A stretch of DNA of 64,000 nucleotides from Deltaproteobacteria bacterium (GTDB lineage Bacteria; Desulfobacterota; Syntrophobacteria; BM002): the NCBI GenBank assembly GCA_019309045.1, contig JAFDGZ010000001.1, positions 1-64,000 of the forward strand. Direction: 5' to 3'. The notes under the pieces are model-generated. The model saw nothing but the letters and a program-made list of their open reading frames with translations. It was not told where the DNA came from and did not search any database. The position numbers and the translations under genes were made by a program. How positions within the stretch are numbered: the first letter of the stretch is position 1; each line of letters begins with the position of its first letter. Below are positions 2,449 through 29,004 of the stretch, piece by piece.

Positions 2449-3843
2449 ATGGCAGTAAACAAGGCCCTGTTGCTCATACCGGTGGAAAACCAGGTGCGCG
2501 AACTGGACCCCAAGCTGCTGCTGGCCTGCGTGGCAGCCAGAAGAGGTTATTCCTCGGTTGTGGGCTCCCGCCGGGAGATGGAGTTTCACATCGATTCCTT
2601 CCCTCCCAGCATATATCTTTCCAAGAGCATGACCGTACGCAGCCTGTTGTTTTTCCGGGCTGCCAGAAAGCTGGGGCATGAAATCGTTGCCTGGGACGAA
2701 GAAGCACTGGTACACCTGCCCCCGGAAATCTACTATTCCCGCAGGCTGGATCCCAGGGCCATCAGGTACGTCTCTCGTCTGTTCGCCTGGGGTAAGGACA
2801 ATGCTGAGCTGTGGGAACATTATCCTCATCTGCCTGCAGACCTGCCGATTCACATTACCGGCAATCCGCGCAGCGACATGCTGCGCTCCGATATCTGCGG
2901 CTTCTACCAGCAAGAAGTCGACAATCTACAGAAAAGATACGGTGATTTCATCCTGGTCAACACCAATTTTAACCATGTCAATGCCTTTGGACCGGATCTC
3001 AACCTGTTCAAGCCGGCCAAACTGCCTACAGGCAAGCCTCGATTCGGCCGGGCAGCGCGGGGCATGACTCGAGAATATGCCGAGGGGCTGCGAGATCACA
3101 AGCAGGCGGTCTTCGAGGACTTCCAGAGATTGATACCAATGTTGGACCTCGCTTTTCCAGATTTCAACATCGTGGTCCGCCCCCATCCCACTGAAAGTCA
3201 CGAGATTTACCGCACGATCGCTGCCAGCTGCAAGCGGGTGGAGGTTACCAATGACGGCAATGTGGTGCCCTGGCTGATGGCCGCCCGGGCCCTGGTGCAC
3301 AACGGCTGTACTACAGGAGTGGAGGCCTACCTTATGGGCGTACCGGCCCTGAGCTACCGGGCCACCATTGACGAACGCTATGACCTGGGTTTTTACCGAT
3401 TGCCCAATCTGCTCAGCCATCAGTGTTTCAGCTTCGAACAGCTGCGGGACACCCTGGAAAAGGCGCTGGCTGGCCAACTCGAAGTTGCCGGCGACGACGA
3501 TCGCCAGGCCATCATCGCCCATTACCTGGCGGCCCGCCATGGGCCCCTGGGCTGTGAACGTATGCTGGATGTGATCGAAGAAATGCTGGCTGCAGGGTTG
3601 GACTCGAATAGCAGCAACACCCTGGTGCGCCGCACTGTCTCCGCCGGGTTGCAGGTGGCCCGCAACCTGAAGTATCACCTGCCCGGTTCGCACAATCGGC
3701 CGGAATTCCAGCAGCATCGCTACCCGGGGATCTCTATGGCAGAGTTGCAGCAGAGGATTTCCCGCTTCCAGGAACTGCTGGGCGATGATCGGCAGTTGAC
3801 AGTGGAGACGATTTCCCCAGTCCTTTTTCTAATCAGCCCCTGA
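2449..3843 (+). CDS. Surface carbohydrate biosynthesis protein, paralogue 1 (putative GT-B transferase)
   Basis: This 464-residue soluble protein is the first of five paralogues in the window (others start at 5049, 12240, 22404 and 26565). Shared blocks are LLIPVENQVREL (8-19), AWDEEALVHLP (81-91), LFAWGKDNAELW (111-122), ITGNPR (136-141), NTNFNHVNAF (171-180), VRPHP (243-247) and HNGCTTGVEAY (284-294). I recognise the family as a surface-carbohydrate biosynthesis protein. The HP pair and the later Ser/Thr-rich turn resemble nucleotide-binding motifs of CMP-sugar-using GT-B enzymes such as bacterial sialyl- and Kdo-transferases, but that likeness is inferred. It sits 42 nt after the transketolase gene. 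Its weaker C-terminus (about 400-464) is basic and ends in a conserved helix. Substrate unknown. Confidence 0.8.
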   Translation: MAVNKALLLIPVENQVRELDPKLLLACVAARRGYSSVVGSRREMEFHIDSFPPSIYLSKSMTVRSLLFFRAARKLGHEIVAWDEEALVHLPPEIYYSRRLDPRAIRYVSRLFAWGKDNAELWEHYPHLPADLPIHITGNPRSDMLRSDICGFYQQEVDNLQKRYGDFILVNTNFNHVNAFGPDLNLFKPAKLPTGKPRFGRAARGMTREYAEGLRDHKQAVFEDFQRLIPMLDLAFPDFNIVVRPHPTESHEIYRTIAASCKRVEVTNDGNVVPWLMAARALVHNGCTTGVEAYLMGVPALSYRATIDERYDLGFYRLPNLLSHQCFSFEQLRDTLEKALAGQLEVAGDDDRQAIIAHYLAARHGPLGCERMLDVIEEMLAAGLDSNSSNTLVRRTVSAGLQVARNLKYHLPGSHNRPEFQQHRYPGISMAELQQRISRFQELLGDDRQLTVETISPVLFLISP

Positions 3844-3876
3844 GAAAGAGCCTGCAAAATCCCGGAGCTCAAACGC

Positions 3877-4935
3877 ATGAAAAAAAGAACTGCACTCAAG
3901 TCAAAGGAATCATACGAAGACACCTGGAATGATGCTTTAAAGATTATGCAAAGCGATATAATCAACAAAGATAAGCATCTGATCGATATTTTAGATAATC
4001 TACTTAAGAATAAGGTGCATAAACGTTTCGAGAAAAAATTCTTTCGTGATTTTCACAAGAAATTAGGGATTCCTATGAAAAGGAATCAACTGCCTAGAGA
4101 ACGTCTGGTAGTCCAAAATGGTGAATACAGGATTGTGCCTTTAAATACAATCCTAGACTATAATTTTATCGATATATTGGCAGAGTTTGTCCAGGAAAAA
4201 GAAAATCAACTTGATTATGTAATTGAACTCGGCAGCGGTATTGGCATAAATCTATTTTTGCTTGCCTATAAACTTGAACCCGCTCTGAGAAAACGGCTAA
4301 GATTTTTTTCGTGTGAGTTTACCGATTCAGGGAGGAAAGCCTGTCAAGAATTACTAAAATTAAGAGATGAATTCCCAATGTCAATAGAATATTTTGACTA
4401 CTATAAGCCTGATTTCTCATTCCTTTCACCCAAGAAAAATGTGCTGTTTATTACCGCTCATTCGATTGAACAGATTCCTCAAATAGACAGGGCTGTCTTT
4501 ACAGAAATGTTAGAGGTGTCGAACCAATGTTATTGCTATCATGCTGAACCTGTCGGTTGGCAATATGATGAAGCCGTAGCGAGTCAACGACTTCATTTGA
4601 AGCCCAGTCACTGGAAAGAAAATAGATCCAAATTTAGGCATAGACTGGAAAAAATTGATAGATGGACATTCTCACGATTTGGTATTGGTGTGGTAAATAT
4701 AGGCGGAAAATTTGGAATCGACATAGAGAAAAGTGATATTGGCAGGAGTGATAAAGTCTCAACCAATGCTGCAATGTATTCATTTGCCAAAGACTATAAT
4801 GCCAATCTGGTAGCAGTATTAAAAGAGATGCAGAGCGAAGGTTTAATTAAAATCGACACGGAAATGATAAATCTGTATGGCAAGAACCCGTTTAATCCAA
4901 CCTCGTTAATTTCATGGCATAAAATTGGTGTTTGA
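3877..4935 (+). CDS. Putative SAM-dependent methyltransferase, low-G+C gene
   Basis: This 352-residue protein contains YVIELGSGIGINLFLLAYKL (about 111-130), a glycine-rich motif I of class I SAM methyltransferases, followed by an acidic residue (CEF) at the place expected after strand beta-2. No other domain was recognised. The start ATG has a GGAG about nine bases upstream. The gene is visibly A/T-rich compared with the flanking genes and uses many AAA, ATA and TTA codons, suggesting acquisition from a lower-G+C donor. It sits between surface-carbohydrate paralogues 1 and 2, so O- or N-methylation of a sugar is a reasonable guess, but the sequence gives no substrate. It could also be a non-methylating Rossmann protein. 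Confidence 0.6.
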   Translation: MKKRTALKSKESYEDTWNDALKIMQSDIINKDKHLIDILDNLLKNKVHKRFEKKFFRDFHKKLGIPMKRNQLPRERLVVQNGEYRIVPLNTILDYNFIDILAEFVQEKENQLDYVIELGSGIGINLFLLAYKLEPALRKRLRFFSCEFTDSGRKACQELLKLRDEFPMSIEYFDYYKPDFSFLSPKKNVLFITAHSIEQIPQIDRAVFTEMLEVSNQCYCYHAEPVGWQYDEAVASQRLHLKPSHWKENRSKFRHRLEKIDRWTFSRFGIGVVNIGGKFGIDIEKSDIGRSDKVSTNAAMYSFAKDYNANLVAVLKEMQSEGLIKIDTEMINLYGKNPFNPTSLISWHKIGV

Positions 4936-5048
4936 ATATAGTTCAGCAGGATTTACTGGAGTAGCCAAGAATAAAGTTAACCGCTAATCACTCGATCGCA
5001 TTGATGACATGATATCAAGTAGACAGTGAACTGAGCTGAAGGGCAACA

Positions 5049-6434
5049 GTGAAAAGGATCCATAAAAAAGTTTCCCTGATTATTCCCGTTGAGAGCCAGT
5101 GGCGTGAATTTGATGCCAAGATGCTCCTTGCCTGTATTGCAGCTGCACGGGGATTTTCTGCTTACATAGGGCCTAATACGGAAATCGAATCGCAGATTTC
5201 TTCTTTTCCAAAGGGGTTTTATCTTGCTTATCGGCTGAAATCTGGAAATGCGAGATTCTTTAGAATTCTATGCAAGCTCGGCTTTGAAATAGTTGCCTGG
5301 GACGAGGAAGCCCTGGTGCGCTTACCTTCTGCAATGTACTATTCACGAAGGCTTTCTCCCAAGGCATTTCGCTGGGTTTCGCACCTGTTTGCCTGGGGAA
5401 AGGATAATTTTCACTTGTGGCGCCGCTATCCTCACCTGTCGTCCGATACGCCAATTCAAATCACAGGCAATCCGCGCTTCGACCTGTTGAGATCAGAATT
5501 GCGAGCTTTCTATGAACAGGAAGCTGCTGCTCTGCAGGAGAAATACGGCAACTACATACTGCTCAATACCAACTTCAAACATGTGAATGCCTTTTACCCC
5601 TTTCTGAATATATTGCAGCCCTCACAAGATGAAGCAGCAGCACCGATACTCGGCAGGGGGGGCAGCGGCATGACGTTGGAGTATGCAGTGGGGCTTCACG
5701 AACATAAAAAGAAGCTTTTCCACGCTTTCCAGGAAGCCATTCCTTTACTGGAGCAGGCTTTCCCAGATTACACCATCATCGTCAGACCACATCCGGTTGA
5801 AGATCAGCGAATTTATCATAACATCGCCGCCAGATGCAAACGGATCATTGTGACCAATGATGGTAATGTTGTTCTCTGGATGCTGGCGGCCAAAGCGCTC
5901 ATTCATAATGGTTGTACTACAGCTGTTGAGGCGCACTCGATGGGACTGCCAGCAATCAGCTATTGTCCCGTTTTGAACGAGCTTTATGACGCTGGTTTTT
6001 ACCATCTACCAAATTCCCTCAGTCACCAGTGTCTCAACTTCGAGCAGCTGTGCCAGACGCTGAGTAGAATACTTGCCGGCGAATTGGGACCGCCAGATGG
6101 AGCAAAAATAAGAGAACTCCTTGATCACTACCTGGCTGCTCAGGACGGCCCTCTAGCCAGTCATCGCATAGTTGACGTTCTGGAAAAGACTGTCGAAAGC
6201 CGGCCAAACTTCTCCAGGGCGGGGATTCGCGACAGGTTACATGGTCGGTACCTGGCCGTCAACCATCGTCTGAAGAAGAAGCATCGAAAAACTGAACTCC
6301 GCCGGCATCGCTATCCGGGCATAGCACTAGAGGAATTACAGAAGCAAGTTGACAAGATGCTGGAAGTATTGAAGATCGACAGTAACATAAGGGTAAAGCA
6401 GCTGGCCGAACAAATCTTCCAAATCAGCTCCTAG
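5049..6434 (+). CDS. Surface carbohydrate biosynthesis protein, paralogue 2 (most divergent)
   Basis: This 461-residue member of the same family begins with GTG, preceded by AAGGG at a suitable distance. It keeps AWDEEALVRLP, LFAWGKDN, ITGNPR, NTNFKHVNAF, VRPHP and IHNGCTTAVEA, but the N-terminal block reads LIIPVESQWREFDAKML, and the central GRAARGM/REYAEGL block of the other copies is GRGGSGM/LEYAVGL. It is therefore the most divergent of the five paralogues and may recognise a different acceptor or donor. The upstream neighbour is the low-G+C methyltransferase gene and the downstream neighbour is an ABC exporter. No signal peptide or membrane segment is visible; the protein should act in the cytoplasm or at the inner face of the membrane. 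Confidence 0.78.
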   Translation: MKRIHKKVSLIIPVESQWREFDAKMLLACIAAARGFSAYIGPNTEIESQISSFPKGFYLAYRLKSGNARFFRILCKLGFEIVAWDEEALVRLPSAMYYSRRLSPKAFRWVSHLFAWGKDNFHLWRRYPHLSSDTPIQITGNPRFDLLRSELRAFYEQEAAALQEKYGNYILLNTNFKHVNAFYPFLNILQPSQDEAAAPILGRGGSGMTLEYAVGLHEHKKKLFHAFQEAIPLLEQAFPDYTIIVRPHPVEDQRIYHNIAARCKRIIVTNDGNVVLWMLAAKALIHNGCTTAVEAHSMGLPAISYCPVLNELYDAGFYHLPNSLSHQCLNFEQLCQTLSRILAGELGPPDGAKIRELLDHYLAAQDGPLASHRIVDVLEKTVESRPNFSRAGIRDRLHGRYLAVNHRLKKKHRKTELRRHRYPGIALEELQKQVDKMLEVLKIDSNIRVKQLAEQIFQISS

Positions 6435-6554: not shown

Positions 6555-8345
6555 ATGCGCTTTTTACTTATCATCTTTCGGCGGTATCCTGGGCAGACCA
6601 TCATGCTGCTGATAGCTCTCCTCTTTGCCGGCATTGCCGAGGGTATTGGTATATCGGCGATGCTGCCGCTGCTTACCATTACACTGGGCGGCTCCGGAGC
6701 AGCAGCCGGGAAAAAGGCCACGCAGGCCGAGCAGATGATCCAGCATATTTTTGACTGGCTCGGCTTTACGCCAACGCTGGAATTTTTGCTCATCCTCATC
6801 TTTTTTACCTTCCTGATCAAAACCCTGCTGGTGTTGTTCGCTAACAAACGCGTCGGCTATACAGTGGCACAGTTAACCACTGATTTGCGCCACCAGGCGT
6901 TAAAGGCCTTCATTATGGCGGGGTGGGAGTTTCATCTGTCCCAGCCAATCGGCAGGCTATCGTCAGCCATGGGCGGCGAGACAGCTCAGACAGCCAAAGC
7001 ATACGCAGCCGGCGTTTCCATGATTGTTGTCGTCATCCACACAATGATCTATATAGGTGTGGCCATGATGGTTTCCTGGAAGGCAACATTGGTCGCCCTG
7101 GCTGCCGGCGTCCTGATCTGGTATCCCCTGAACCACTTCGTCAAGAAAGCCAGAAAAGCCGGCCGCCGTCAGGTGAAGCTGAGGCGATCTCTGTCGTCTT
7201 TTTTTGTGGACACAATTCAATCCATGAAACCACTCAAAGCCATGGCGCGCGAGGACCGGGCGGAAGCTGTTCTCATTTCCAAGACCAACAAACTGAAAAA
7301 GGCTTTGCAGAGGGAAATTATAAGCAAAGAGTCTTTGTCAGCCTATCAGGAAATAATGCTGGTAACCTTTCTGCTCATTGCCATTTACGTGGCAATCGCT
7401 GTCTGGCATATGGCAGCGAGCACCGTGTTGATCTTGATAGTGCTGTTGCGCCGCATCCTGAGCAAGTTGGGCAAGATTCAGAAGCAGTACCAGCTGATGA
7501 GCATCCAGGAAGTCGGTTACTGGACAATGACCAAAACCATTGAGACGGCCCGTAATATGCGAGAGAAGAACCTCGGCCAGCAGAAGCCAGTGCTGAGGCA
7601 TGCCATTCGGTTGCAGGAGGTGACATTTGCCTACGGTGAACACAACATCCTCGACAATGCCTCCCTTACCTTCCCGGCTGGAAAGATCACCGCAATTGTT
7701 GGGCCGTCGGGAGCTGGAAAAACCACCATTGTGGATCTGGTGATCGGGCTCTTGCGTCCACAGAAAGGTGAGATCTGGATAGACGACCTGCCGCTGGCCG
7801 AAGTGGACATTCGCCAGTGGCGGCGCATGATCGGTTATGTGTCCCAGGAGCCTATTCTGCTGCACGATTCCATTTTCATCAACGTCACTCTCGGAGATCC
7901 GAACGTCACTGAAAAAGAGGTGCGTGAAGCCTTGAAGAAGGCCGAGGTCTGGGACTTCGTTGCCACGATGCCCAAGGGGATGTACAGTTCCGTGGGACAG
8001 CGTGGCCTGAGATTGTCCGGAGGCCAGCGGCAGCGCGTTGCTATAGCCCGGGCACTCGTACACCAGCCCGAGTTGCTCATTTTGGACGAGGCCACCACCG
8101 CCCTCGATCCGAAAAGTGAAGCGGCCATCTGTGCTACCCTGCGAAGGCTCCGGGGTGATCTTACGATCCTGGCAATCTCCCACCAGCCTGCTGTACTGGA
8201 GGTTGCCGACCAGGCCTACCGGGTGCAGAACGGCACAGTGGTCCCTGTAAGCATAATTGCCAAGAGCGATGCTGTCTTGCAAGAAGTCAATGTTAGCTCT
8301 GACGAGAAACCGCAGACAGGCTGTGCAGTCAAGAAAACACCTTGA
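6555..8345 (+). CDS. ABC exporter, fused permease and ATPase
   Basis: This 596-residue half-transporter has an N-terminal membrane domain (hydrophobic segments near 13-42, 74-97, 152-190 and 265-300) and a C-terminal ATPase. Walker A is GPSGAGKTT (383-391), the signature LSGGQRQR (487-494), Walker B LLILDEATTALD (507-518) and the H-loop AISHQ (540-544). The architecture matches MsbA/PglK-type exporters that act as homodimers and flip lipid-linked glycans or lipids. It is the only exporter in the 29-kb glycan locus; no Wzx, Wzy, Wzm or Wzt was seen. It may therefore flip the lipid-linked product of this locus, though the substrate is inferred from context. The C-terminal about 40 residues are an extra unstructured-looking tail. 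Confidence 0.88.
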   Translation: MRFLLIIFRRYPGQTIMLLIALLFAGIAEGIGISAMLPLLTITLGGSGAAAGKKATQAEQMIQHIFDWLGFTPTLEFLLILIFFTFLIKTLLVLFANKRVGYTVAQLTTDLRHQALKAFIMAGWEFHLSQPIGRLSSAMGGETAQTAKAYAAGVSMIVVVIHTMIYIGVAMMVSWKATLVALAAGVLIWYPLNHFVKKARKAGRRQVKLRRSLSSFFVDTIQSMKPLKAMAREDRAEAVLISKTNKLKKALQREIISKESLSAYQEIMLVTFLLIAIYVAIAVWHMAASTVLILIVLLRRILSKLGKIQKQYQLMSIQEVGYWTMTKTIETARNMREKNLGQQKPVLRHAIRLQEVTFAYGEHNILDNASLTFPAGKITAIVGPSGAGKTTIVDLVIGLLRPQKGEIWIDDLPLAEVDIRQWRRMIGYVSQEPILLHDSIFINVTLGDPNVTEKEVREALKKAEVWDFVATMPKGMYSSVGQRGLRLSGGQRQRVAIARALVHQPELLILDEATTALDPKSEAAICATLRRLRGDLTILAISHQPAVLEVADQAYRVQNGTVVPVSIIAKSDAVLQEVNVSSDEKPQTGCAVKKTP

Positions 8346-8451: not shown

Positions 8452-9366
8452 CTAGCCGTGCAATTTGGAAAACAATCTCTTTCTCTCTCTCTGGGAGAAC
8501 AAGTTCGGTATATCCCGCAGAAGGCCGCCGCAGGCAAGAATATAACTGGGCCGCACGTCATAGCCAAATTGCCTGGCATAATTCCTCGTGATAGAGCTTA
8601 CCAGATGAGCCTGGTCGACAGTAAGCGCCGCCTGCCATTTGTCGGGATCATTTCTGACGATTTCATTCAGCTCAATGTTTTTTCTTTTCCAGAATTCATG
8701 TTCCTGGACAATCTTCTCCGGGGCGGCAATATCAGGAACTCCCTGGCCGCCAAACGGGATATCCAAGAACTGCCATAGATTGTGAACAACTTTTTCTGTT
8801 TCAGAAGTTAAATCTTCATACCTAACTAGAAATACATTGTTTTCATTTTTGATTTGTATTATAGCTGCGGCAATTTTGTTATATAGAAGGGCTAGCCGTG
8901 TTATTGATTTCCTTTCAATCTTGGTCCTAGTTTTTTGTGAACTGACCACATTTTTCGGCTCACGAATCATGCAGATAAATTTAGCCGTCGGGTAATAATG
9001 AAGTATCTTTGAATAAAAAAATACATGCCTGGGGGTTTTCTCTAGGAAAGTATTCTTGTTCTCTTCATTAAATATATCAATAATATATTCAAATATTTCT
9101 TTTTGCGACTCTAGACTGCAGATAATTTCTTCATCTACTTCGATTCTTGCTTTTTTCTTTAAAAGATGCTGTATTTTCTTCCTGTTTTTTTCATCTAACT
9201 GTTCAGGCAAGCCATACCCCACCCGCGAAAAAAAGTGGGTCTCGGGCACTGGGAAATAATATCCTGTGTTGCACAGGATTCCCTGGATCAATGTGGTGCC
9301 GGACCTGGGCATCCCCACGACAAACACAGGATCTCGATAAGGCCTTTTGGCTTCTATTCGGCTCAT
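8452..9366 (-). CDS. Sulfotransferase family protein
   Basis: This 304-residue protein begins with a PAPS-binding 5'-phosphosulfate loop, VVGMPRSGTTLIQG (about 16-29), and has the 3'-phosphate segment FICMIREPKNVVSSQ, with the Arg and Ser used by sulfotransferases. It probably transfers sulfate from PAPS to a sugar hydroxyl in the cytoplasm. It is the last gene of a three-gene minus-strand run (GT-B-like, large sulfotransferase, this gene), 21 nt after its upstream neighbour, with no clear ribosome-binding site. It is a different subfamily from the four RSGGT-type and two GKSGTT-type sulfotransferases nearby. The central third is A/T-rich and Lys/Ile-rich, hinting at a separate origin. Confidence 0.78.
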   Translation of the reverse strand: MSRIEAKRPYRDPVFVVGMPRSGTTLIQGILCNTGYYFPVPETHFFSRVGYGLPEQLDEKNRKKIQHLLKKKARIEVDEEIICSLESQKEIFEYIIDIFNEENKNTFLEKTPRHVFFYSKILHYYPTAKFICMIREPKNVVSSQKTRTKIERKSITRLALLYNKIAAAIIQIKNENNVFLVRYEDLTSETEKVVHNLWQFLDIPFGGQGVPDIAAPEKIVQEHEFWKRKNIELNEIVRNDPDKWQAALTVDQAHLVSSITRNYARQFGYDVRPSYILACGGLLRDIPNLFSQRERKRLFSKLHG

Positions 9367-9387
9367 GGCAGGGTAGCTTGCTGAAAT

Positions 9388-10515
9388 TCACGATATTTTC
9401 GAACAGATCTTCAATACTTCTCTATACAGCCCAGTCGTCATATCTGCAATAATTTGTAACTGTTCCTGCGTCAATGTCTTGTATCTGTTTAGTGTGCTTT
9501 CGATGATCCCGGCTTGCTGGTCTTTGAACGAGGTGTTGGCCCTGATAGGGAATTTGTTGAATGAAGGAATCAACAGGCAATCATCAAAAGCAATCTGCAA
9601 AAAGTCGGCTAAAAAACGCATGACTGCTTCAGTGTGTAGTATTAAATCTTCGAACGTCAGAACACAGACGCGCTCGCCATACAGTGCTTTGTTGCGGAGC
9701 ATTGCCTCGGCATTCTCTCTCCACAACTGCAATGATTCCCTGATATTGCCATAAATCGAAGGCTTGTGCCTTGCTGCTGAAGGATACCAGTTCTTGGGAT
9801 CTCTGATGATGGATATCAGCCGACCGTCAGGGTAGATTTCGAAGAACGATTTTACATTGCTCTCATCCATGGCCAGCCTGGCAGTGAAAGCAATGATGAA
9901 TTTTTTCTGGCCAGCACTGTTCTGGTTGTTGAGCCAGGCCCCGAAATAGGAGGTCATGTAAGCATTGAACACATCCCGTTGGGTAACTGAAGCCAGTTCG
10001 CCCAGATGTCGCAAAAAGAGCTCCTTTTGAACAGCTGGCAGGAACAGAAACAGAAACGTTTCATCCATGTTTTTCTGCTTTTTGTAGCCGCTTTTGAAAT
10101 GCTTCAGAACAACCGGCTCGAACAGGACTTGCAGCCACCGTTCTGGTTCTTCATCAAGATGAAATTCAGGCCACACGTATTTTGTTGGAAAACCAATTTT
10201 CAGCTCGTGGGGGTGGGCATGAACTTCAGGATGACCATCGAAGAGCTGGCTCAACAGCGTGCCACCGGAACGCTGGAGCTGAGAGATAAGGACAAGAGGC
10301 GACTCCACAGTTTGCATGTGTGCTGCGCACGACCGCTGCAAGGCCTTTAACTGATCACTGCGACAGCGAAATTCCCTTTTCAGTTCATTGAGGCGGCGCC
10401 TCTGCTTGCGAAAACGCTTGAAAGTAATTTTGCCGTCTCTGGCAATCATGGCGTCTGTAGCACTGCGCCCCAATGTCTTCTGCGAAATTTTTGTCAAAAA
10501 TTCTTGATAAATCAT
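9388..10515 (-). CDS. Sulfotransferase-like protein, RSGGT type, copy 1
   Basis: This 375-residue protein is one of four paralogues (others at 13662, 16135 and 24881). It has a P-loop-like segment, LVLISQLQRSGGTLLSQLFD (about 75-94), then HAHPHELKIG, and a 3'-phosphate-like segment LISIIRDPKNWYPSA. Between them YMTSYFGAWLNNQN is strongly conserved among the four. These are the two binding elements of PAPS-dependent sulfotransferases. The N-terminal 60 residues form a basic helix-rich region shared with copies 3 and 4. It follows the GT-B-like gene at 11886-10579 on the same strand (63 nt gap), so a glycan substrate is likely. The precise acceptor is unknown. Confidence 0.72.
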   Translation of the reverse strand: MIYQEFLTKISQKTLGRSATDAMIARDGKITFKRFRKQRRRLNELKREFRCRSDQLKALQRSCAAHMQTVESPLVLISQLQRSGGTLLSQLFDGHPEVHAHPHELKIGFPTKYVWPEFHLDEEPERWLQVLFEPVVLKHFKSGYKKQKNMDETFLFLFLPAVQKELFLRHLGELASVTQRDVFNAYMTSYFGAWLNNQNSAGQKKFIIAFTARLAMDESNVKSFFEIYPDGRLISIIRDPKNWYPSAARHKPSIYGNIRESLQLWRENAEAMLRNKALYGERVCVLTFEDLILHTEAVMRFLADFLQIAFDDCLLIPSFNKFPIRANTSFKDQQAGIIESTLNRYKTLTQEQLQIIADMTTGLYREVLKICSKIS

Positions 10516-10578
10516 AGCATTTATGCCGGCTGTCTCTTATTAAAGCCGACTCTGTCACCTGACCACCTCTTTAATGGG

Positions 10579-13643: not shown

Positions 13644-13661
13644 GGTTGCTGTTTTTCTGCT

Positions 13662-14660: not shown

Positions 14661-14766
14661 TTTGGACCTGGAGTGACCCGGCAAATACGCCCTGCCTTTT
14701 TCCCTATTTTCTGCAGCACCCGGGGAGAGCACTTTTTCTGCCCTGTTCTTTCCGCAACTATCCTTG

Positions 14767-20620: not shown

Positions 20621-20635
20621 TTTTCCCTTCACTCC

Positions 20636-21397: not shown

Positions 21398-21400
21398 AAG

Positions 21401-22039: not shown

Positions 22040-22111
22040 GAGCTCATATCCCTTCAGGCTACACCCAAGAAACTGTCAACAGCGAGAACACTTTCCTGGA
22101 GAATGCGGAGC

Positions 22112-22140
22112 AATATAACTTTCGACTATAATTTTGTCAA
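22112..22140 (-). promoter_or_regulatory. Sigma-70-type promoter of the cyclase-kdsB operon
   Basis: Read on the minus strand, TTGACA (22140-22135) is followed after 17 bases by TATATT (22117-22112). The -35 box is perfect. The expected start of transcription is near 22105, about 66 bases before the ATG at 22039. Confidence 0.65.
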
Positions 22141-22334
22141 GATTTTGATATCTTAACACCTTCCTGAAATATGGACAATTGCGGGCCCCGAGAGTAGCGT
22201 TAGACGAGCCGTCAAAACATGATAGAATAAAACTCAGTATATTCCTGAAGCGCAGAGCCAGATTTTCTTGCAATGCCAGGGACTCCTGTGATACATGCGC
22301 TGCAATCAGAACATTTATCTGGCTGCAGCGGTAC

Positions 22335-22362
22335 TTGCACTTTGCAGGCTTGCCAATATAAT
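22335..22362 (+). promoter_or_regulatory. Sigma-70-type promoter of surface-carbohydrate paralogue 4
   Basis: TTGCAC (22335-22340), a 16-base spacer and a perfect TATAAT (22357-22362) precede the gene start at 22404 by about 40 bases. This places transcription start near 22370 and the GGAG ribosome-binding site just upstream of the ATG. Confidence 0.6.
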
Positions 22363-22403
22363 ACCACCCTGCCTCGACCGCATGAAGTGGAGAGCCGTGG
22401 TCT

Positions 22404-23831
22404 ATGAGCGCCCCTATCTGGAAAAAAACAGCTTTACTGATCCCGGTAGAAAACCAGGTGCGTGAGCTGGATGCCAAGCTGCTGCTTGCTTGCGTTGCTG
22501 CTAGGCGCGGCATGCAGTCCGTTATCGGCTTCAAGCGGGACATAGAGTTTGGCATTGCCTCCTTTCCACCCAGCATCTTTCTTGCCAAATCCCTAAGGAT
22601 CGGCAAGCGCAAGATTTTTCCACTGAGCCGCAGACTGGGCCACAAGATCGTCGCCTGGGATGAAGAAGCCCTGGTGCATTTGCCGGCGGACATTTATTAT
22701 TCGCGGAGATTATCGGCTCGGGGAATGAAATACGTATCGCATTTGTTTGCCTGGGGCGATGATAATGCCGAGCTGTGGCGGCGGTATCCTGCATTGCCCG
22801 GCGCCACCCGGATTCACGTAACGGGCAATCCCCGAGGCGACCTGCTGCGGCGCGACATGAGGATCTTTTATCAGGAAGAAGCAGCAAGAATCAGACAATC
22901 TTATGGACAGTTTATACTCGTTAACACCAATTTCAACCATGTGAATGCCTTTTATCCAGCACAGAACCTGTTTCAACCCATAAAAAGATCAGGTGAAGAA
23001 CCGGAGTTCGGTCAGGCGGCCCGGGGAATGCCGCGCAAGTATGCCGAAGGGTTGCGGGATCACAAGCAGACCATTTTCGAGCATTTTCAAAGACTTATTC
23101 CTGTCCTGGACGAGTCTTTTCCGGAATACACCATCGTGGTGCGGCCTCACCCCACAGAAAACCAGAAGATTTACCAGGAGATCGCCGCCAGGTGCCGTCG
23201 GGTCCGGGTCACCAATCAGGGCAACGTGGTGCCATGGTTGCTGGCCACTTGCGCCCTGATTCATAACGGCTGTACCACAGGGGTGGAAGCCTATGCCATG
23301 CGGGTGCCCAGCATTTCCTACATGCCGGAAACAAATGAATACTACGACTATGGTTTTTATCAGTTGCCGAATCGACTGAGCTACCAGTGTTTCAACCTCA
23401 GCGACCTGCAAGATACCCTGGCGCGGATCCTGGAGGGACAGCTGGCTGCCCTCCATGGTGAAGAGGGCGAGGCCCTTGTCAAGCGTCACCTGGCAGCCCA
23501 GAGCGGACCTCTGGCCTGCGAGCGGATCGTGGACATTCTGCAGAAGGTCGCTCAAGACCTGATCCGATGTCCTTCACCATCCTGGCGCCACAGGCTGGCT
23601 GGCCGGCTGCAGACAACCAGCCGCCGCCTGAGACAAAATGTAAAAGCCAAACTGCCGGGTGCAACCAAGACCAAGGAGTTCCAACAGCACCGCTATCCAC
23701 CGGTTGCCCTGCAGGACATCAGCTCGCGAATTGACAAATTCCAGGAGATTCTGGGCGGCGACGAACAGGTAGAGGTAAGTCAGGTATCCAGAAATATTTT
23801 CCGGGTGGCGCCGGCAGCGAGGCATATCTGA
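22404..23831 (+). CDS. Surface carbohydrate biosynthesis protein, paralogue 4
   Basis: This 475-residue protein of the five-copy family has LLIPVENQVRELDAKLLLAC, AWDEEALVHLP, LFAWGDDNAELW, VTGNPRGDLLR, NTNFNHVNAF, VRPHP and IHNGCTTGVEAY. Where the other copies read LSHQCF it reads LSYQCF. It has its own promoter and is followed after 71 nt by a small sulfotransferase gene on the same strand, with a large sulfotransferase gene opposing. The surface-gene plus small-sulfotransferase pair is repeated at 26565-29004. Soluble; no membrane segment seen. Likely a glycosyl- or related transferase of glycan synthesis. Confidence 0.8.
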   Translation: MSAPIWKKTALLIPVENQVRELDAKLLLACVAARRGMQSVIGFKRDIEFGIASFPPSIFLAKSLRIGKRKIFPLSRRLGHKIVAWDEEALVHLPADIYYSRRLSARGMKYVSHLFAWGDDNAELWRRYPALPGATRIHVTGNPRGDLLRRDMRIFYQEEAARIRQSYGQFILVNTNFNHVNAFYPAQNLFQPIKRSGEEPEFGQAARGMPRKYAEGLRDHKQTIFEHFQRLIPVLDESFPEYTIVVRPHPTENQKIYQEIAARCRRVRVTNQGNVVPWLLATCALIHNGCTTGVEAYAMRVPSISYMPETNEYYDYGFYQLPNRLSYQCFNLSDLQDTLARILEGQLAALHGEEGEALVKRHLAAQSGPLACERIVDILQKVAQDLIRCPSPSWRHRLAGRLQTTSRRLRQNVKAKLPGATKTKEFQQHRYPPVALQDISSRIDKFQEILGGDEQVEVSQVSRNIFRVAPAARHI

Positions 23832-23902
23832 GGTAATGCTGCCAACACTGTTGTTTGCAATGCTCAACTGGAAGCTTTGTTGATATTCAACCGGGAGATT
23901 AT

Positions 23903-24775
23903 ATGAAAATTCTCATCCTCGGACGCGGAAAATCTGGAACAACCGCCCTGTTATTCAAAATGGCGGCCGGGCTTGCAGACTGCCAGGCCTTTTCCGGTGG
24001 ATATCCTGCCAGACATCAAAGCCTGCATGGCAATGCCATTTTCAAATATACTTATAGCGAAAGAAAAGGCAAGACCTTCGAGCTCTATCAGCAACACCTG
24101 GCAGAGCAACCGTATGATCGGAAAATCTGGATGGCGCGTGATCCTCGGGATGCCGCCGTGAGCAAGATGCTCTATCGTTGGCACAAGGGACCAAAAGGAA
24201 GCTGGAGACAGTTCTGGCAGCACCTGCGGCTGGTGGAGCAAAAAGAGCGCCAGCCCCACTCGATTCCTTTCCATGTCCTTTGCAGCTATGCTGGCCACGG
24301 CCCCTGGCCTCTGGCAACTGAGGCGTTGATCGAGGGCGAACGGTTTCGCAGCCAGCGAATGGCCGAGTTCGTAAAGAACCTTGGTGATGATTGGTTTGTC
24401 TTTACCTACGAAGACATGGTGCGCGGCAATTTCAAGGCCTTGAATCACTATCTCGGTTTCGAGGTCCACCTGGAGGCAGAGGTGCCGCAAACCACCAAGA
24501 AATCAAAGGTGGCTCGCAAGAAGGCCTTTGGCGATTGGCGCAACTGGTTTACACCGGAAGACGTCCAGCTGTTCAAAGCAGCCTACCTGCCGTATATGGA
24601 AGTCATTGGCTATGACTGCCGCGACTGGCAGATCAACCCCAGGCCCGTCATAGAGCCGCAATTTGCCTCTCTCTATATGAAAAGCCTGGTGCGCAAGAAT
24701 GCCCTGAACAAAATCCGCAAATTCTGCACCAAGATATTTGCTGGTACAACTCACAGTAGTCGGCCGCAGCAGTGA
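23903..24775 (+). CDS. Sulfotransferase-like protein, GKSGTT type, copy 1
   Basis: This 290-residue protein begins KILILGRGKSGTTALLFKMA, a PAPS-binding loop at the extreme N-terminus, and has KIWMARDPRDAAVSKMLYRW with the Arg and Ser of the 3'-phosphate site. The GGGAG at 23893-23897 fixes the start at the ATG at 23903 rather than an in-frame upstream codon at 23855. Its paralogue is at 28150-29004. Both share KIWMARDPRD, MLYRWH, FTYE.MV, a ..GDWR.WFTPEDV segment and a YLPYMEVIGYDC block near the C-terminus. It is probably co-transcribed with the surface-carbohydrate gene upstream and may sulfate its product. Confidence 0.75.
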   Translation: MKILILGRGKSGTTALLFKMAAGLADCQAFSGGYPARHQSLHGNAIFKYTYSERKGKTFELYQQHLAEQPYDRKIWMARDPRDAAVSKMLYRWHKGPKGSWRQFWQHLRLVEQKERQPHSIPFHVLCSYAGHGPWPLATEALIEGERFRSQRMAEFVKNLGDDWFVFTYEDMVRGNFKALNHYLGFEVHLEAEVPQTTKKSKVARKKAFGDWRNWFTPEDVQLFKAAYLPYMEVIGYDCRDWQINPRPVIEPQFASLYMKSLVRKNALNKIRKFCTKIFAGTTHSSRPQQ

Positions 24776-24880: not shown

Positions 24881-26023
24881 TCACAAGTCAACTGCTTCGT
24901 CGAGCAGGGCCTGGTAGATTTCCCCTGTTTCCGTGTCAATTTTTCGCAATACTTCCGGGCTGAGAGTCTGGTACCGGTAAAGAGTACTCCGCAAGATCTT
25001 CTCTTTTTCCGGACCGAAGCTGGTGTTTGCACTGATCTGGTTGCAATTGAAGGTGGGGATCAACAGGATATCATTGAAGTCGATATCTAAAAATTCACAT
25101 AAGTACTGCATGACGTCTGCGGTTCGGCTTACCAGATCTTCAAAGCGAATGATGCAGACTCGGTCGGCAAACATCTCTTTGTTTCTCAGCATGGCGGCAC
25201 CATTTTCTTGCCACTGAGCCAGGGCGTTATCGATGTCACCGTACTTGTTATGCTTTTTCTGGGGAGCATGCCGCAAGGCCGATGGATACCAGTTCTTGGG
25301 GTCCCTGACGATGGATATCAGGCGCCCATCCGGATAGACATGGAAAAACGCCTTCATGTTGGAAACTTTCATTGACAGCCTGGGTGTAAAGCCAGTGACG
25401 AACTTTTTTGACCCCAGCACATTATAGTTGTTGAGCCAGGCTCCAAAAAAAGAAGTCATGTAAGCATCGAAAATGTCACGCTGGCTGATCCGGCTGATGC
25501 CCGCAAGGTATTTGCAGAATATTTCCTTTTGCAGAGCAGGCAGAAAGATGAAGGGAAATGTCTCATCAGAGCGCTCTTTGTGATAGCCTTCTTTGAAGAG
25601 ACGGACAACGATATCTTCGAAAAGGATCTCAAACCAGGCCTCTGGACTGTCGCGCAGATCGAGTACTGGCCAGAAGTACTTCTTGGGGTAACCAATTTTC
25701 AGCTCATAAGGATGCGCATGCAGCTGGTGGTGGCCGTCAAAGAGCCTGCTCAGCAGTGTTCCCCCTGAACGTTGGATCTGAGATATGAGAGCCAGGGGTT
25801 CGGTTACTGGAATCAAATGCTTGAGGCAGGTGCGGCTGAGATCATGGAGTATGGATTTGCTGCCATTCAGCTCACTCTTCAGAATTTTTCTTCTGGTCAG
25901 GCTCTTGCGAAGTCTGTGCAAGCTGACGCGCCCCTCTGCGGCCATGATGGCCTCGGTCATTCTTTCTCCCAGGATCTGCCTGGCTGCAAGAAACAAGAAT
26001 CTTTCATAGTATTTTTTCAACAT
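24881..26023 (-). CDS. Sulfotransferase-like protein, RSGGT type, copy 4
   Basis: This protein has LALISQIQRSGGTLLSRLFD, HAHPYELKIGY, YMTSFFGAWLNNYN and LISIVRDPKNWYPSA, the same order as copies 1-3. The open frame runs back to a TTG at 26083, but alignment with copy 1 starts at the MLKKYYERF Met, whose ATG at 26023 has a GGA seven bases upstream, giving 380 residues. It stands alone on the minus strand between two plus-strand surface-carbohydrate/small-sulfotransferase pairs and converges on the gene ending at 24775 with a 105-nt gap. A PAPS-dependent sulfotransferase acting on the surface glycan is the likely role. Confidence 0.7.
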   Translation of the reverse strand: MLKKYYERFLFLAARQILGERMTEAIMAAEGRVSLHRLRKSLTRRKILKSELNGSKSILHDLSRTCLKHLIPVTEPLALISQIQRSGGTLLSRLFDGHHQLHAHPYELKIGYPKKYFWPVLDLRDSPEAWFEILFEDIVVRLFKEGYHKERSDETFPFIFLPALQKEIFCKYLAGISRISQRDIFDAYMTSFFGAWLNNYNVLGSKKFVTGFTPRLSMKVSNMKAFFHVYPDGRLISIVRDPKNWYPSALRHAPQKKHNKYGDIDNALAQWQENGAAMLRNKEMFADRVCIIRFEDLVSRTADVMQYLCEFLDIDFNDILLIPTFNCNQISANTSFGPEKEKILRSTLYRYQTLSPEVLRKIDTETGEIYQALLDEAVDL

Positions 26024-26460
26024 GTTGTTTTCCATAAATCGCCAGCAAACCAACCGCCTGTTTGTTAGCCTGGCTGCCTGCAAGGAGCATACTACCCGGC
26101 AACCCTGCAGCTCCAGGGCAGTTTAGAGCCTGCAACGCTCTGAAAAAAACACCATCTCTCTGCTCAAGAAATGGAGTTTGTCTGAGGTTGCCGCTATGTT
26201 CAAGACTGTTCCGTCAACTCCCGATAATTTGCTGCATCTTAAAGCAATTTACGCTCACCCTGCTGTGATTGTCAAGATATCCTCCCCTGTTGCGGCAATT
26301 GTCCTCGGCAGTGCTGCGCAGCTGCTTCACTGCCAAGAGTGCCAGAGCCTCGCAAAGGATCACTGTCAGCAGCAACACTCAGACCAGGCTGCATACCATT
26401 GTATCTGCAAGCGGCGCCATGGACCTTCTCAAGTTTTGTCCGAGTCAGGATAATCCGTAC

Positions 26461-26490
26461 TTGACACTTGCTTCCTCCTTGGCCTAACAT
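26461..26490 (+). promoter_or_regulatory. Sigma-70-type promoter of surface-carbohydrate paralogue 5
   Basis: A perfect TTGACA (26461-26466), an 18-base spacer and TAACAT (26485-26490) point to a transcription start near 26497. The mRNA would begin just before the leader hairpin, about 68 bases upstream of the ATG at 26565. Confidence 0.55.
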
Positions 26491-26505
26491 TTTTTGGACA
26501 ACTGA

Positions 26506-26535
26506 AGAGCCCCTCGGGCGAAGGCGCCGGGCTCT
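26506..26535 (+). promoter_or_regulatory. Leader hairpin before surface-carbohydrate paralogue 5
   Basis: AGAGCCC (26506-26512) pairs with GGGCTCT (26529-26535) around a G/C-rich 16-base loop. No T-tract follows, so it is not an ordinary terminator. It lies in the predicted 5' leader, 29 bases before the start codon, and could stabilise the mRNA or influence translation. Confidence 0.4.
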
Positions 26536-26564
26536 AGCAGTGACTGCCATTGAGAGTTAACTAT

Positions 26565-27962
26565 ATGTCAATAAAATCCTTGCTTATTCCCGTTGAGAAC
26601 CAGGTCCGCGAATTCGATCCCAAACTCTTGCTCGCCTATGTTGCTGCCAAGCATGGTTTCACCTCCATTATCGGGCCTCGCCGAGAAATTCATTTTCGTA
26701 TCGCCTCATACCCTCCAAGCATTTATCTTTCCAAGAGTATCACTGTACACAGCGACATGATGTTCAAGATCATGCACAATCTCGGCCACGGCATCGTGGC
26801 CTGGGACGAGGAGGCCCTGGTTCACCTGCCCCCAGAGATTTACTTCTCGCGCCGGCTGTCGCCGGTGGCCCTGTCATATGTTTCTCATCTGTTCGCCTGG
26901 GGGGAGGACAATGCAGCACTGTGGCGCCAGTATGATCAACTACCAGCCGGGGCCAAAATCCATGTTACTGGAAACCCCCGAGGGGATCTATTACGGCCGG
27001 AAATGCGGCCTTTCTTTGAGCAAGAGGTGGCTAAACTTCGGGGAAAATATGGGGACTTCATACTCATCAACACCAACTTCAATCATGTGAACAGTTTTTC
27101 TCCTGTGCAGAATCTGTTTCAACCCACTAAAAAAGCCGGCGAAAAACCTAGATTCGGCCGAGCAGCCAGAGGCATGACCAGGGAATACGCCGAAGGACTG
27201 CGTGATCACAAACAGGCCATCTTCGCTGCTTTTCAGCGCCTCATTCCCTGGTTGGCGAAAACTTTTCCTGACTACAACGTAGTGGTGCGGCCTCACCCCA
27301 CTGAGAATCCCGGTATTTACCAACAGATTGCCTCTAAATGCCAGCGGGTGTACGTAACCAACAAGGGCAATGTGGTTCCCTGGCTGTGGGCTACCAGGCT
27401 GGTGATTCACAACGGCTGCACTACCGGCGTAGAGGCTTACGTAATGGGTGTTCCTGCTGTCAGCTATCGAGCCAAAATCAATGAATACTATGACTACGGC
27501 TTTTATCGCTTGCCGAATCTCTTGAGTCACCAGTGTTTCGACTTTGATGAATTGCAAGAAACCTTGGCAGGAATTCTTGCTGGCAAGCTTGGCCCTGCAG
27601 AAGGGGCCGAGCGTCAGGCGCTGATTGAACACTATCTGGCCTCCAGGCAAGGACCTCTGGCCTGTGAACGGATGGTAGCAGTGCTGGAACAGATGGCAGC
27701 AGGTGAATCTGAATTGCCGCAGCCTTCCAGGCGTCAGCGTCTTGAAGGCAGAGCCGTTGCAGCTGGACGAATGATCGTCAAGCGCTGCAAATCCCGCCTG
27801 CCCGGGTCTCATAACAAGCCTGCCTTTCAACGCTATCGCTATCCAGGGGTAACACTGCCAGAGGTGCGCGCCAAGATCGCCAGGTTTCGCCGAGTGCTGG
27901 GGGATGCCAGAGAAGTACAGGCAGAACAGATAGCCGAGCAGTTCTTCCGAATCAGCTCGTGA
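26565..27962 (+). CDS. Surface carbohydrate biosynthesis protein, paralogue 5
   Basis: Starting from the ATG at 26565 the protein has 465 residues; a TTG at 26550 is in frame but not needed to match the paralogues (MSIKSLLIPVENQ aligns with paralogue 1). Conserved blocks are LLIPVENQVREFDPKLLLA, AWDEEALVHLP, LFAWGEDNAALW, VTGNPRGDLLR, NTNFNHVNSF, VRPHP and IHNGCTTGVEAY. By eye it is closest to paralogue 1 (HIVAWDEE/PPSIYLSKS region, GSHNKPAFQ tail). It has its own promoter. The next gene, a GKSGTT-type sulfotransferase, also has its own promoter. Function as for the other copies: putative transferase in surface glycan synthesis. Confidence 0.8.
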   Translation: MSIKSLLIPVENQVREFDPKLLLAYVAAKHGFTSIIGPRREIHFRIASYPPSIYLSKSITVHSDMMFKIMHNLGHGIVAWDEEALVHLPPEIYFSRRLSPVALSYVSHLFAWGEDNAALWRQYDQLPAGAKIHVTGNPRGDLLRPEMRPFFEQEVAKLRGKYGDFILINTNFNHVNSFSPVQNLFQPTKKAGEKPRFGRAARGMTREYAEGLRDHKQAIFAAFQRLIPWLAKTFPDYNVVVRPHPTENPGIYQQIASKCQRVYVTNKGNVVPWLWATRLVIHNGCTTGVEAYVMGVPAVSYRAKINEYYDYGFYRLPNLLSHQCFDFDELQETLAGILAGKLGPAEGAERQALIEHYLASRQGPLACERMVAVLEQMAAGESELPQPSRRQRLEGRAVAAGRMIVKRCKSRLPGSHNKPAFQRYRYPGVTLPEVRAKIARFRRVLGDAREVQAEQIAEQFFRISS

Positions 27963-28002
27963 AAGATTCGCCGCTGACCGCAGGCTCTGGGGACTATTGC
28001 TC

Positions 28003-28031
28003 TTGACAGCCTGTTGCCTTCCATCTATACT
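28003..28031 (+). promoter_or_regulatory. Strong sigma-70-type promoter of the sulfotransferase at 28150
   Basis: TTGACA (28003-28008) is perfect, the spacer is exactly 17 bases and the -10 is TATACT (28026-28031). Transcription would start near 28038, leaving a leader of about 110 bases before the ATG at 28150. It begins only 40 bases after the upstream stop codon. Confidence 0.7.
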
Positions 28032-28149
28032 CCGGCCGCTTTCAGGGATTCATGCCACTGTTGCCGAGCAATGCCGGAAGGCGTCTTGCTTGCTCAGGCA
28101 TTGAGCCTGCCGACTTTCGAGTTTAGAGGCGTTTTGCTGAGGGACTCTC

Positions 28150-29004
28150 ATGAAGATTTTCATCTTGGGCACAGGCAAGTCAGGGACTACAGCCCTGCTC
28201 TACAAGGTTGCAGGAGGACTGCCCAACTGCCAGGCTTTCTCTGGCGGCCGTCCGGGCAAATATGTGGGCGACTACCAGAATGCTGTATACAAGCATACCT
28301 ATGAGGAAAGAAAAGGGAAAACCTTTGATCTCTATCTGGCGCACCTGCAAAAGGAAGCTTATGATCGCAAAATCTGGATGGCCCGCGATCCCCGGGACGT
28401 TGCGGTCAGCCGGATGCTCTACCGCTGGCATCGCGGCTATCTAGGCAGCAAAAAGCAGTACCAGGCGCATCTCGATCTGGTCCTGAAAAAGGAGCAGGAT
28501 CCTGCCTCTGTTCCTTTTCATGTCATCTGCCGGTATTCGGGTCACAATGGTTGGCCGCGAACAACTGAGGAAGTGGTGGCCGAGGAGGAGCGCCGTTATA
28601 AGCGCATGTCCAAGTTTGTCAGGGAACTTGACCAGGATTGGTTTATCTTCACCTATGAACAGATGGTTGCCAAAAATTTTGACGACTTGAACAGTTATCT
28701 TGGCTTCCAGGTAAAAGTGGACACTGAAGTCCCCAGGTCAACAGGCAAGGCCAAGGTGGTCCGCAAGAAGGCTACTGGTGACTGGCGGCACTGGTTTACC
28801 CCAGAGGATGTGGAACTGTTCAAACCAGTGTACCTGCCTTATATGGAAGTTATCGGCTATGATTGTGAAGATTGGGCCCTCAGCCAGCAGCCAGTGATCG
28901 AGCCGGAATTTTCTTCCCAATACATGCAAAGCCTGCCCAGGAGAAAATCTCTGAATTCCTTGATGACCTTCAAAGACCTCCTGATTCGCCGCTTGCGCAA
29001 ATGA
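28150..29004 (+). CDS. Sulfotransferase-like protein, GKSGTT type, copy 2
   Basis: This 284-residue paralogue of the gene at 23903 starts KIFILGTGKSGTTALLYKVA and keeps KIWMARDPRDVAVSRMLYRW, the two PAPS-binding elements. The C-terminal half shares RKKATGDWRHWFTPEDVELF and YLPYMEVIGYDCEDW with copy 1. GAGGG lies six bases before the ATG. Unlike copy 1 it has a separate strong promoter, so it can be expressed independently of the surface-carbohydrate gene upstream. It closes the glycan locus; the next gene is on the other strand. Sulfation of a surface sugar is the likely role. Confidence 0.75.
   Translation: MKIFILGTGKSGTTALLYKVAGGLPNCQAFSGGRPGKYVGDYQNAVYKHTYEERKGKTFDLYLAHLQKEAYDRKIWMARDPRDVAVSRMLYRWHRGYLGSKKQYQAHLDLVLKKEQDPASVPFHVICRYSGHNGWPRTTEEVVAEEERRYKRMSKFVRELDQDWFIFTYEQMVAKNFDDLNSYLGFQVKVDTEVPRSTGKAKVVRKKATGDWRHWFTPEDVELFKPVYLPYMEVIGYDCEDWALSQQPVIEPEFSSQYMQSLPRRKSLNSLMTFKDLLIRRLRK

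Follow-up and report, generated by a model that had tools for sequence, protein, structure and literature searches.

A gene locus with five TIGR04396 genes and seven sulfotransferase-family genes, proposed to build a sulfated, ulosonic acid-containing glycan

The window, the whole 64,000-nucleotide stretch analysed here, comes from a sulfate-reducing deltaproteobacterium and contains a locus that probably assembles and sulfates a surface glycan containing CMP-activated ulosonic acids, which could be nonulosonic, sialic-acid-like and perhaps Kdo-like. Judging from gene content, homology, conserved gene order, co-grouping of partner genes, predicted fold class, motifs and linkage to CMP-ulosonate genes, we infer that proteins of the family TIGR04396 transfer the activated ulosonic acids, while partner sulfotransferases would sulfate the glycan.

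The TIGR04396 genes and their conserved neighborhood

Profile searches revealed five genes in the window, all on the forward strand, whose products match the NCBIfam family TIGR04396 over their whole length with e-values of about 1e-110 and scores of 365-380 bits, against a curated cut-off of 125 bits. We numbered these copies along the window as SP1 (2449-3843; 6e-112), SP2 (5049-6434; 8.7e-109), which is the most diverged, SP3 (12240-13643; 3.3e-111), SP4 (22404-23831; 1.8e-110) and SP5 (26550-27962; 1.5e-113), with the true start of SP5 likely to be the ATG at 26565. The profiles thus bear out the view of the initial annotation that these are five paralogues of one carbohydrate family, rather than members of unrelated families. 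Pfam offered no usable name for them, returning a single weak Epimerase_2 match, and NCBIfam was therefore used. The window proteins also show a weaker full-length match, below the cut-off, to NF046086 (1e-13 to 1e-18), the BFO_1060 family, whose name we take to be a Tannerella forsythia locus tag. An open reading frame antisense to SP4 (22076-22693, reverse strand) matched nothing in Pfam and is unlikely to be a real gene. A search of the 3.9-Mb assembly recovered five TIGR04396 copies in total, all of them in the window, and the confinement of 5/5 genomic copies to 0.7% of the genome is not a chance occurrence. No 16S rRNA gene was detected in this assembly.

Comparison of related loci uncovered a recurring gene set in Desulfobacterota and Gammaproteobacteria, which comprises a NeuB-like synthase, an SDR, an aldehyde dehydrogenase, a NeuA-like CMP-sugar synthetase, a transketolase, two TIGR04396 genes and a sulfotransferase, in the conserved order NeuB-SDR-ALDH-NeuA-TKT-SP1-SP5-STk, and which is often joined by a KdsC-like phosphatase. 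This set extends the feature to the left of position 2449, where the initial annotation began it without the CMP-ulosonate biosynthesis context. Here lie the transketolase (469-2406, forward; PF00456, PF02779 and PF02780), with 56-79% identical homologues in the same place at 18 loci, and the 3' part of the gene for a CMP-ulosonate synthetase of the NeuA/PseF-like type (CTP_transf_3; 2-475, forward), whose product is 64-78% identical to full-length homologues of 250 residues from 19 loci. Because the contig starts within the NeuA-like gene, the rest of the core donor set is not visible, and in this assembly the core is represented by these two genes, with NeuB off the contig.

The NeuB, NeuA and KdsC assignments were made from profiles and PDB relatives. 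A full-length NeuA-like homologue (L032, 5254-6009) matches PseF with an e-value of 1.1e-41, which is below the cut-off, and also matches CMP-Neu5Ac synthetases in the PDB. Known Neu, Leg and Pse clusters combine a synthase and a CMP-synthetase with enzymes dedicated to the precursor, either NeuC or the Leg or Pse enzymes, whereas in the set described here the NeuB-like and PseF-like proteins score below the equivalog cut-offs and the conserved neighbors are the SDR, the aldehyde dehydrogenase and the transketolase; precursor genes may lie elsewhere in the genome. The KdsC-like HAD protein of the related loci scores 88 bits against NF058599, used as a test for KDN-9-phosphate phosphatase (cut-off 180), with KdsC models scoring higher, and no KDN-9-phosphate phosphatase-type gene was seen in the window. 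In our literature searches, which covered TIGR04396, BFO_1060 and nonulosonic acids together with transketolase, the recurring set was not described.

Predicted activity and ancestry of the TIGR04396 copies

Genes for NeuB, NeuA or KdsB were detected in 17 of the 27 regions surrounding TIGR04396 genes of the phylum, as against one of 20 control regions centered on ordinary GT4 genes, taken mostly from the same genomes (Fisher p=4.8e-5). Against this, the other 10 TIGR04396 regions are without NeuA, NeuB or KdsB within the retrieved DNA, and several of them adjoin an ABC exporter instead. Distant relatives (about 25% identical) in two further genomes (L130, L131) also adjoin the transketolase-aldehyde dehydrogenase-SDR set, together with NeuA or NeuB/KdsB. 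The AF2 model of SP5 (pLDDT 91.6) adopts a GT-B fold in Foldseek searches, with remote matches (TM 0.5-0.6, 10-14% identity) that include UDP-GlcNAc 2-epimerases and are led by TagF (E 9.5e-9), an enzyme that uses CDP-glycerol and releases CMP. Neither the TIGR04396 alignment nor that of the GT-B-like enzymes encoded in the same locus found anything significant in profile searches of PDB sequences, and profile-profile comparison of the two groups gave a probability of 0.4% and showed no homology beyond the fold.

As TagF is the best single structural match, TIGR04396 proteins could be GT-B transferases for another donor, such as a TagF-like polyol-phosphate or an ordinary nucleotide hexose, that are merely located in ulosonate loci, and the genes of L120 and L122-L124, which adjoin an ABC exporter with no NeuA or NeuB nearby, would fit this proposal. 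However, all four genomes behind L120, L122, L123 and L124 carry another copy beside NeuA and/or NeuB, which, along with the enrichment over same-phylum GT4 controls, argues against a different donor, and we consider one unlikely.

Transfer of ulosonic acids is in turn consistent with some of the conserved motifs. The TIGR04396 alignment has nearly invariant RPHP and GCTT signatures, with RPH invariant and the final P nearly so, and the HP motif of bacterial sialyltransferases binds CMP-Neu5Ac (PMC2169525). GT-B proteins of T. forsythia with HP and D/E-D/E-G motifs are nonulosonic acid transferases as supported by knockouts (PMC6388019). The D/E-D/E-G motif, by contrast, speaks against such an activity: it reads DEEA in the window clade (acidic residues D81-E83 in SP5), and the glycine is seen in the sister lineages L119-L125 and a single close copy, which have DEEG; because of this difference we did not file the window proteins in GT38, GT52 or GT80. 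In a Neisseria polysialyltransferase the corresponding Gly-to-Ala change abolished activity (PMC2169525). That these proteins are instead sugar epimerases of the non-hydrolysing UDP-GlcNAc 2-epimerase type, supplying a precursor rather than transferring sugars, is very improbable, as the many epimerases among the fold matches and the Epimerase_2 match of SP3 (E 1.5e-4, C-terminal half, below cut-off) stand against the RPHP/GCTT signature and the occurrence of five copies in this cluster and five in another genome, which a role in precursor supply would not readily explain.

The initial annotation described an expansion of the family, a term that is misleading if taken to mean recent duplication in place. 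The five copies are 50-61% identical to each other, and in the tree SP1 falls inside an SP1-type clade of Gammaproteobacteria and Desulfobacterota, SP3 clusters with L060_5, L061_2 and L070_1 (support 100/99) and SP5 with L026_8, L029_10, L030_2 and L039_12 (100/99). SP4 is nearest to L029_9 and L060_2 with modest support (93/60), and SP2 sits on a long branch of unsure placement. Three sequences drawn into the TIGR04396 cluster (L026_9, L036_5 and L039_7), with branch lengths above 5, were omitted from alignments and models and retained in the tree. By this tree at least three of the copies represent older lineages whose orthologues occur in other genomes. A quite improbable alternative is that recent duplication within the locus gave rise to the five copies and the seven sulfotransferases, which would vary one antigen through phase or strain variation, with several copies performing the same reaction; gene types repeated in similar arrangement and a decayed-looking sulfotransferase copy (STr3, below) would agree with it, but the identity among copies points to older divergence, as does the tree, in which SP1, SP3 and SP5 stand apart from one another, each beside genes from other genomes, and on the tree we rejected local duplication as the main origin.

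Sulfotransferases and the accessory block

All seven sulfotransferase-family genes proposed initially score above the cut-off for PF13469 or PF00685. The PRSGTT-type gene STp (8452-9366, reverse; PF13469 2.2e-28) and the two GKSGTT-type genes, STk1 (23855-24775, forward; PF00685 7.7e-7) and STk2 (28150-29004, forward; PF00685 8.5e-8), have the motifs ascribed to them, but the supposed four RSGGT genes need revision: STr1 (9388-10515, reverse; PF13469 2.5e-14), which groups with L044_14 at 98/93, and STr4 (24881-26083, reverse; 7.1e-17) do have RSGGT, whereas STr2 (13662-14792, reverse; 2.4e-14) has RSGGS and STr3 (16135-17259, reverse; 2.7e-9, C-terminal half only) has CSGGA. The 5'-phosphosulfate-binding loop (K/R-SG-x-T/S) and the 3'-phosphate motif (R-D/E-P..S) are present in six of the seven, the exception being STr3, in which the alignment shows that the Arg and Ser/Thr of the PAPS loop are lost, and which is probably inactive.

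The repeated pairing noted initially recurs well beyond this genome. Among 73 TIGR04396 genes with a readable neighbor, from 51 named loci, 30 have a GKSGTT-type sulfotransferase gene as their immediate downstream neighbor in the same orientation. STk2 is the conserved partner found 3' of the second TIGR04396 gene of the core, and about 30 loci have 60-75% identical homologues of it following TIGR04396 genes. STk1, the partner of SP4, groups with L029_8, L060_3 and L061_3, which adjoin SP4/SP3-type genes, and both window pairs (SP4 with STk1, SP5 with STk2) cluster with the corresponding pairs of other genomes. Given this conserved pairing and co-grouping, it is reasonable that different transferases act on different residues of one glycan.

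SP1 and SP5, the copies of the core lineages, enclose an accessory block some 22 kb long with the three remaining TIGR04396 genes and six of the sulfotransferase-family genes; its base composition suggests that it was acquired piecewise. It includes a weakly assigned methyltransferase-like gene (3877-4935, forward; MnmC2-type model at E 0.003 only, GC 36%), whose 69% identical homologue L043_7 adjoins a TIGR04396/sulfotransferase cluster. An MsbA/PglK-like ABC exporter (6555-8345, forward; PF00005 and PF00664, with HepA, MsbA and PglK models below cut-off) is a candidate lipid-linked glycan flippase. The duplicated pair of GT-B-like genes reported initially is also upheld: GTB1 (10579-11886, reverse) models as a GT-B/UDP-GlcNAc 2-epimerase fold (pLDDT 86, Foldseek) and groups with L061_5 at 99/96, and GTB2 (14767-16098, reverse; weak PF13439) is 50% identical to it. 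Further along on the reverse strand are a fusion of a family-2 glycosyltransferase with a Zn-dependent sugar dehydrogenase (17480-19399; PF00535 6e-20, PF08240 7.7e-29; 77% identical homologue L043_8), a D-2-hydroxyacid dehydrogenase-family gene of the accessory sugar module (19673-20632; PF02826 2.8e-56), a second CMP-sugar activator in the form of a KdsB-like CMP-ulosonate synthetase (20636-21397; PF02348 2.7e-47, PRK13368 9.6e-89, over cut-off) and a cyclase/arylformamidase-like gene of the same KdsB block (21401-22039; PF04199 1.8e-23). The D-2-hydroxyacid dehydrogenase and KdsB-like proteins each have an 80% identical homologue in L061, the former encoded beside KdsB.

A proposed working of the locus and its relation to known systems

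We propose that the core enzymes, from the NeuB-like synthase to the transketolase and often the KdsC-like phosphatase, would make the sugar donor, that SP1 and SP5 would move this sugar onto the growing glycan, and that STk2 would add sulfate from PAPS. The accessory block would supply three more TIGR04396 lineages, the two GT-B enzymes, the GT2-dehydrogenase fusion, the exporter, the KdsB-like synthetase with its own dehydrogenases, and six sulfotransferase-family proteins, of which STr3 is probably inactive. The additional transferases probably extend the same glycan with more ulosonic acids, or with other kinds, and the partner sulfotransferases may serve individual residues or linkages. 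The genome carries dsrA and ATP sulfurylase, and APS can therefore be made. A point against the proposal is that the assembly, which is 97% complete, yielded no APS kinase; the sole hit is, to judge from its sequence, an unrelated phosphotransferase/P-loop (kinase) fusion.

A bolder extension, which we offer tentatively as a doubtful possibility, is that TIGR04396 represents a novel family of glycosyltransferases for CMP-ulosonic acids and that the NeuB-SDR-ALDH-NeuA-transketolase set makes an undescribed ulosonic acid, which is subsequently sulfated, so that sulfate-reducing and sulfur-oxidising bacteria would have a sulfated nonulosonate glycan in common. The widespread TIGR04396, named only "surface carbohydrate biosynthesis protein", gains a testable activity in CMP-ulosonate transfer, and its pairs with sulfotransferases could reveal residue-by-residue targeting of sulfation in a bacterial glycan. 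By bringing sulfotransferases together with synthesis of the nonulosonate type and a transketolase/aldehyde dehydrogenase pair, the recurring set would offer a genetic handle on sulfated and sialylated polymers known from environmental biofilms.

A close parallel is with GtfS (Tanf_01245) and TFUB4_00887 of the T. forsythia protein O-glycosylation cluster, which like the window proteins are GT-B-like, of about 445-470 residues, with HP and acidic motifs, and whose genes likewise adjoin those for CMP-nonulosonate biosynthesis (PMC6388019, PMC6120980); at the profile level the likeness is a sub-cut-off similarity to NF046086, the model presumed to represent this group. In T. forsythia, however, a single copy adjoins a full Pse or Leg pathway with no sulfotransferase reported, and the motif is D/E-D/E-G rather than DEEA. 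The sialyltransferases of GT38, GT52 and GT80 share with the window proteins the HP and acidic motifs, the GT-B fold and, as proposed here, a CMP-sugar donor (PMC2169525), but in the window proteins alanine replaces the motif glycine, and their profile matched none of the solved structures significantly. The beta-Kdo transferases KpsC and WbbB (GT107, GT99) similarly have an HP motif and the CMP-ulosonate donor proposed here (PMC10148158), but are absent from the best 50 fold matches, and the window protein is single-module. At the level of the polymer, nonulosonic acids and sulfated groups co-occur in the extracellular polymers of granular sludge, an environmental biofilm, as proposed for the glycan of this locus (PMC10483923). 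That study combined chemistry with BLAST hits in reference genomes and reported no such cluster, and the window locus, from a different organism, is a candidate genetic basis for sialylated and sulfated polymers.

The TIGR04396 genes and their history

The initial annotation described a five-copy surface-carbohydrate family expanded among seven sulfotransferases. Its five genes, all on the forward strand (SP1 to SP5: 2449-3843, 5049-6434, 12240-13643, 22404-23831 and 26550-27962), are indeed complete and of one family, scoring 365-380 bits against NCBIfam TIGR04396, whose cut-off of 125 bits was our membership threshold; the model itself assigns no function. They are 50-61% identical pairwise, and no sixth copy was found in the assembly (3.9 Mb, 97% complete, 211 contigs). 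Other genomes have two to five copies each, and one Desulfobacterales chromosome also carries five, spread over two sites.

A local, recent expansion is disfavored by the phylogeny. In a TIGR04396 tree of 84 rows, SP3 and SP5 each grouped with genes of other genomes at 100/99, and SP1 joined a gammaproteobacterial group at 90/77 within an SP1-type clade of 100/98; SP4 is placed with moderate support (93/60), and SP2, on a long branch, has an unsure position. The sulfotransferase adjoining SP4 (23855-24775) clusters with those next to SP4- or SP3-type genes in three other loci (L029, L060 and L061; SH-aLRT 97-98), and that adjoining SP5 (28150-29004) with L030_3, the neighbor of an SP5-type gene (SH-aLRT 88). 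The cluster thus seems to have been put together from older lineages, in part pairwise, and not by recent expansion in place. The tree of RSGG-type sulfotransferases is poorly resolved, except for the union of 9388-10515 with L044_14 (98/93).

A recurring gene order and an accessory block

Comparison of 51 loci in named genomes, mostly of Desulfobacterota plus Gammaproteobacteria (Thiogranum, Thiohalobacter, Sedimenticola), revealed a recurring order of NeuB-like synthase, SDR, aldehyde dehydrogenase, NeuA-like protein, transketolase, two TIGR04396 proteins and GKSGTT sulfotransferase, often accompanied by a KdsC-like phosphatase. Given this order, SP1, SP5 and the sulfotransferase at 28150 are the counterpart of the 3' half of the core, and 3877-26083 forms an accessory block between SP1 and SP5. 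The first base of the window, which is also that of the contig, lies inside a gene with full-length NeuA/PseF-like CMP-sugar synthetase homologues, directly followed by a transketolase gene; the predicted 5' half would be hidden beyond the assembly edge.

Pieces of the block, namely KdsB with 2-hydroxyacid dehydrogenase, GT-B with RSGG sulfotransferase, and SP3/SP4 with GKSGTT sulfotransferase, recur in L029/L044, L043, L060, L061 and L070. The low GC of part of it (36-49% at 3877-6434 and 42-47% at 8452-11886, versus 50-59% in the other genes of the locus) suggests separate acquisition. A family-2 glycosyltransferase and a Zn-dependent dehydrogenase (threonine/inosose dehydrogenase-like) are fused in a single ORF at 17480-19399, and L043 contains a 77% identical fusion near a sulfotransferase gene of the same type. 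Downstream of the glycan locus, 34405-46735 is an anaerobic electron-transfer cluster, with HdrA-like FAD/Fe-S proteins bearing an MvhD/FlpD domain.

Sulfotransferases and sulfate supply

All seven partner genes gave a Pfam sulfotransferase domain, with PAPS motifs intact in six. Among the four described as RSGGT, this loop is present in 9388-10515 and 24881-26083; 13662-14792 has RSGGS and 16135-17259 CSGGA. The last of these, whose profile match is also incomplete, is therefore unlikely to be active as a PAPS enzyme. Degenerate loops were also seen in L032:14711-15835 and L070:1128-2300 (HSGGS, FSGGM); decayed or repurposed RSGG-family copies thus recur across loci. The two GT-B-like genes (10579-11886 and 14767-16098) are paralogous as claimed (50% identity), and the first has a predicted GT-B fold. 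In a second island of the same genome (L138, G000:C57:3552-13157), a glycosyltransferase gene sits amid additional sulfotransferase domains, at least four in number.

The assembly as a whole encodes about eleven sulfotransferases. The genome carries dsrA and ATP sulfurylase, so that APS can be made. APS kinase (PF01583) was not found in the whole assembly; the only match, in L077, was set aside as resembling a phosphotransferase/P-loop fusion. Since some family relatives have the kinase and others lack it, its absence would be most simply explained by a gap in the assembly.

Candidate sugar transfer by TIGR04396 proteins

Linkage, structure and motifs together point to CMP-ulosonate transfer by TIGR04396 proteins; we infer the substrates, as we do acceptor, order of addition and surface location. 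NeuA, KdsB or NeuB homologues occur in 17 of 27 same-phylum TIGR04396 regions versus 1 of 20 PF13439 glycosyltransferase regions (p=4.8e-5), a value that is a guide, because the controls, largely from the same genomes, were hand-picked from strong hits, region lengths were unequal (mean 12.9 versus 15.9 kb, to the controls' advantage) and several regions share one genome. The NeuB-like and NeuA-like proteins score under every equivalog cut-off, and Neu, Leg or Pse precursor enzymes are absent from the conserved gene set. Transketolase, aldehyde dehydrogenase and SDR could make an aldose precursor or oxidise the product, and the KdsB-like protein of the accessory block suggests that a second acid is CMP-activated as well.

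Distant TIGR04396 relatives (about 25% identical) in L130 and L131 (genomes G107 and G399) adjoin the transketolase-ALDH-SDR set with NeuA or NeuB/KdsB, which suggests a sugar pathway that predates the window's TIGR04396 clade or has been more mobile; GTB-like genes are also present in both, and an RSGG-type sulfotransferase in L130. In a second conserved setting (L120, L122, L123, L124), TIGR04396 lies one gene from an ABC exporter of MsbA type, which shares 46-49% identity with the window's exporter, and NeuA/NeuB are absent nearby.

The modelled TIGR04396 protein adopts a GT-B fold (pLDDT 91.6), best matching TagF and then UDP-GlcNAc 2-epimerases (TM 0.5-0.6), and RPHP and GCTT are nearly invariant in the alignment. 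Bacterial sialyltransferases bind CMP-Neu5Ac by an HP motif (PMC2169525), and HP and acidic motifs also occur in the nonulosonate transferases of T. forsythia, where knockouts lack the sugar (PMC6388019). Against this, the acidic motif of the window's proteins is DEEA and not DEEG, so we do not assign them to the known sialyltransferase families; by analogy we claim that they would act like members of these.
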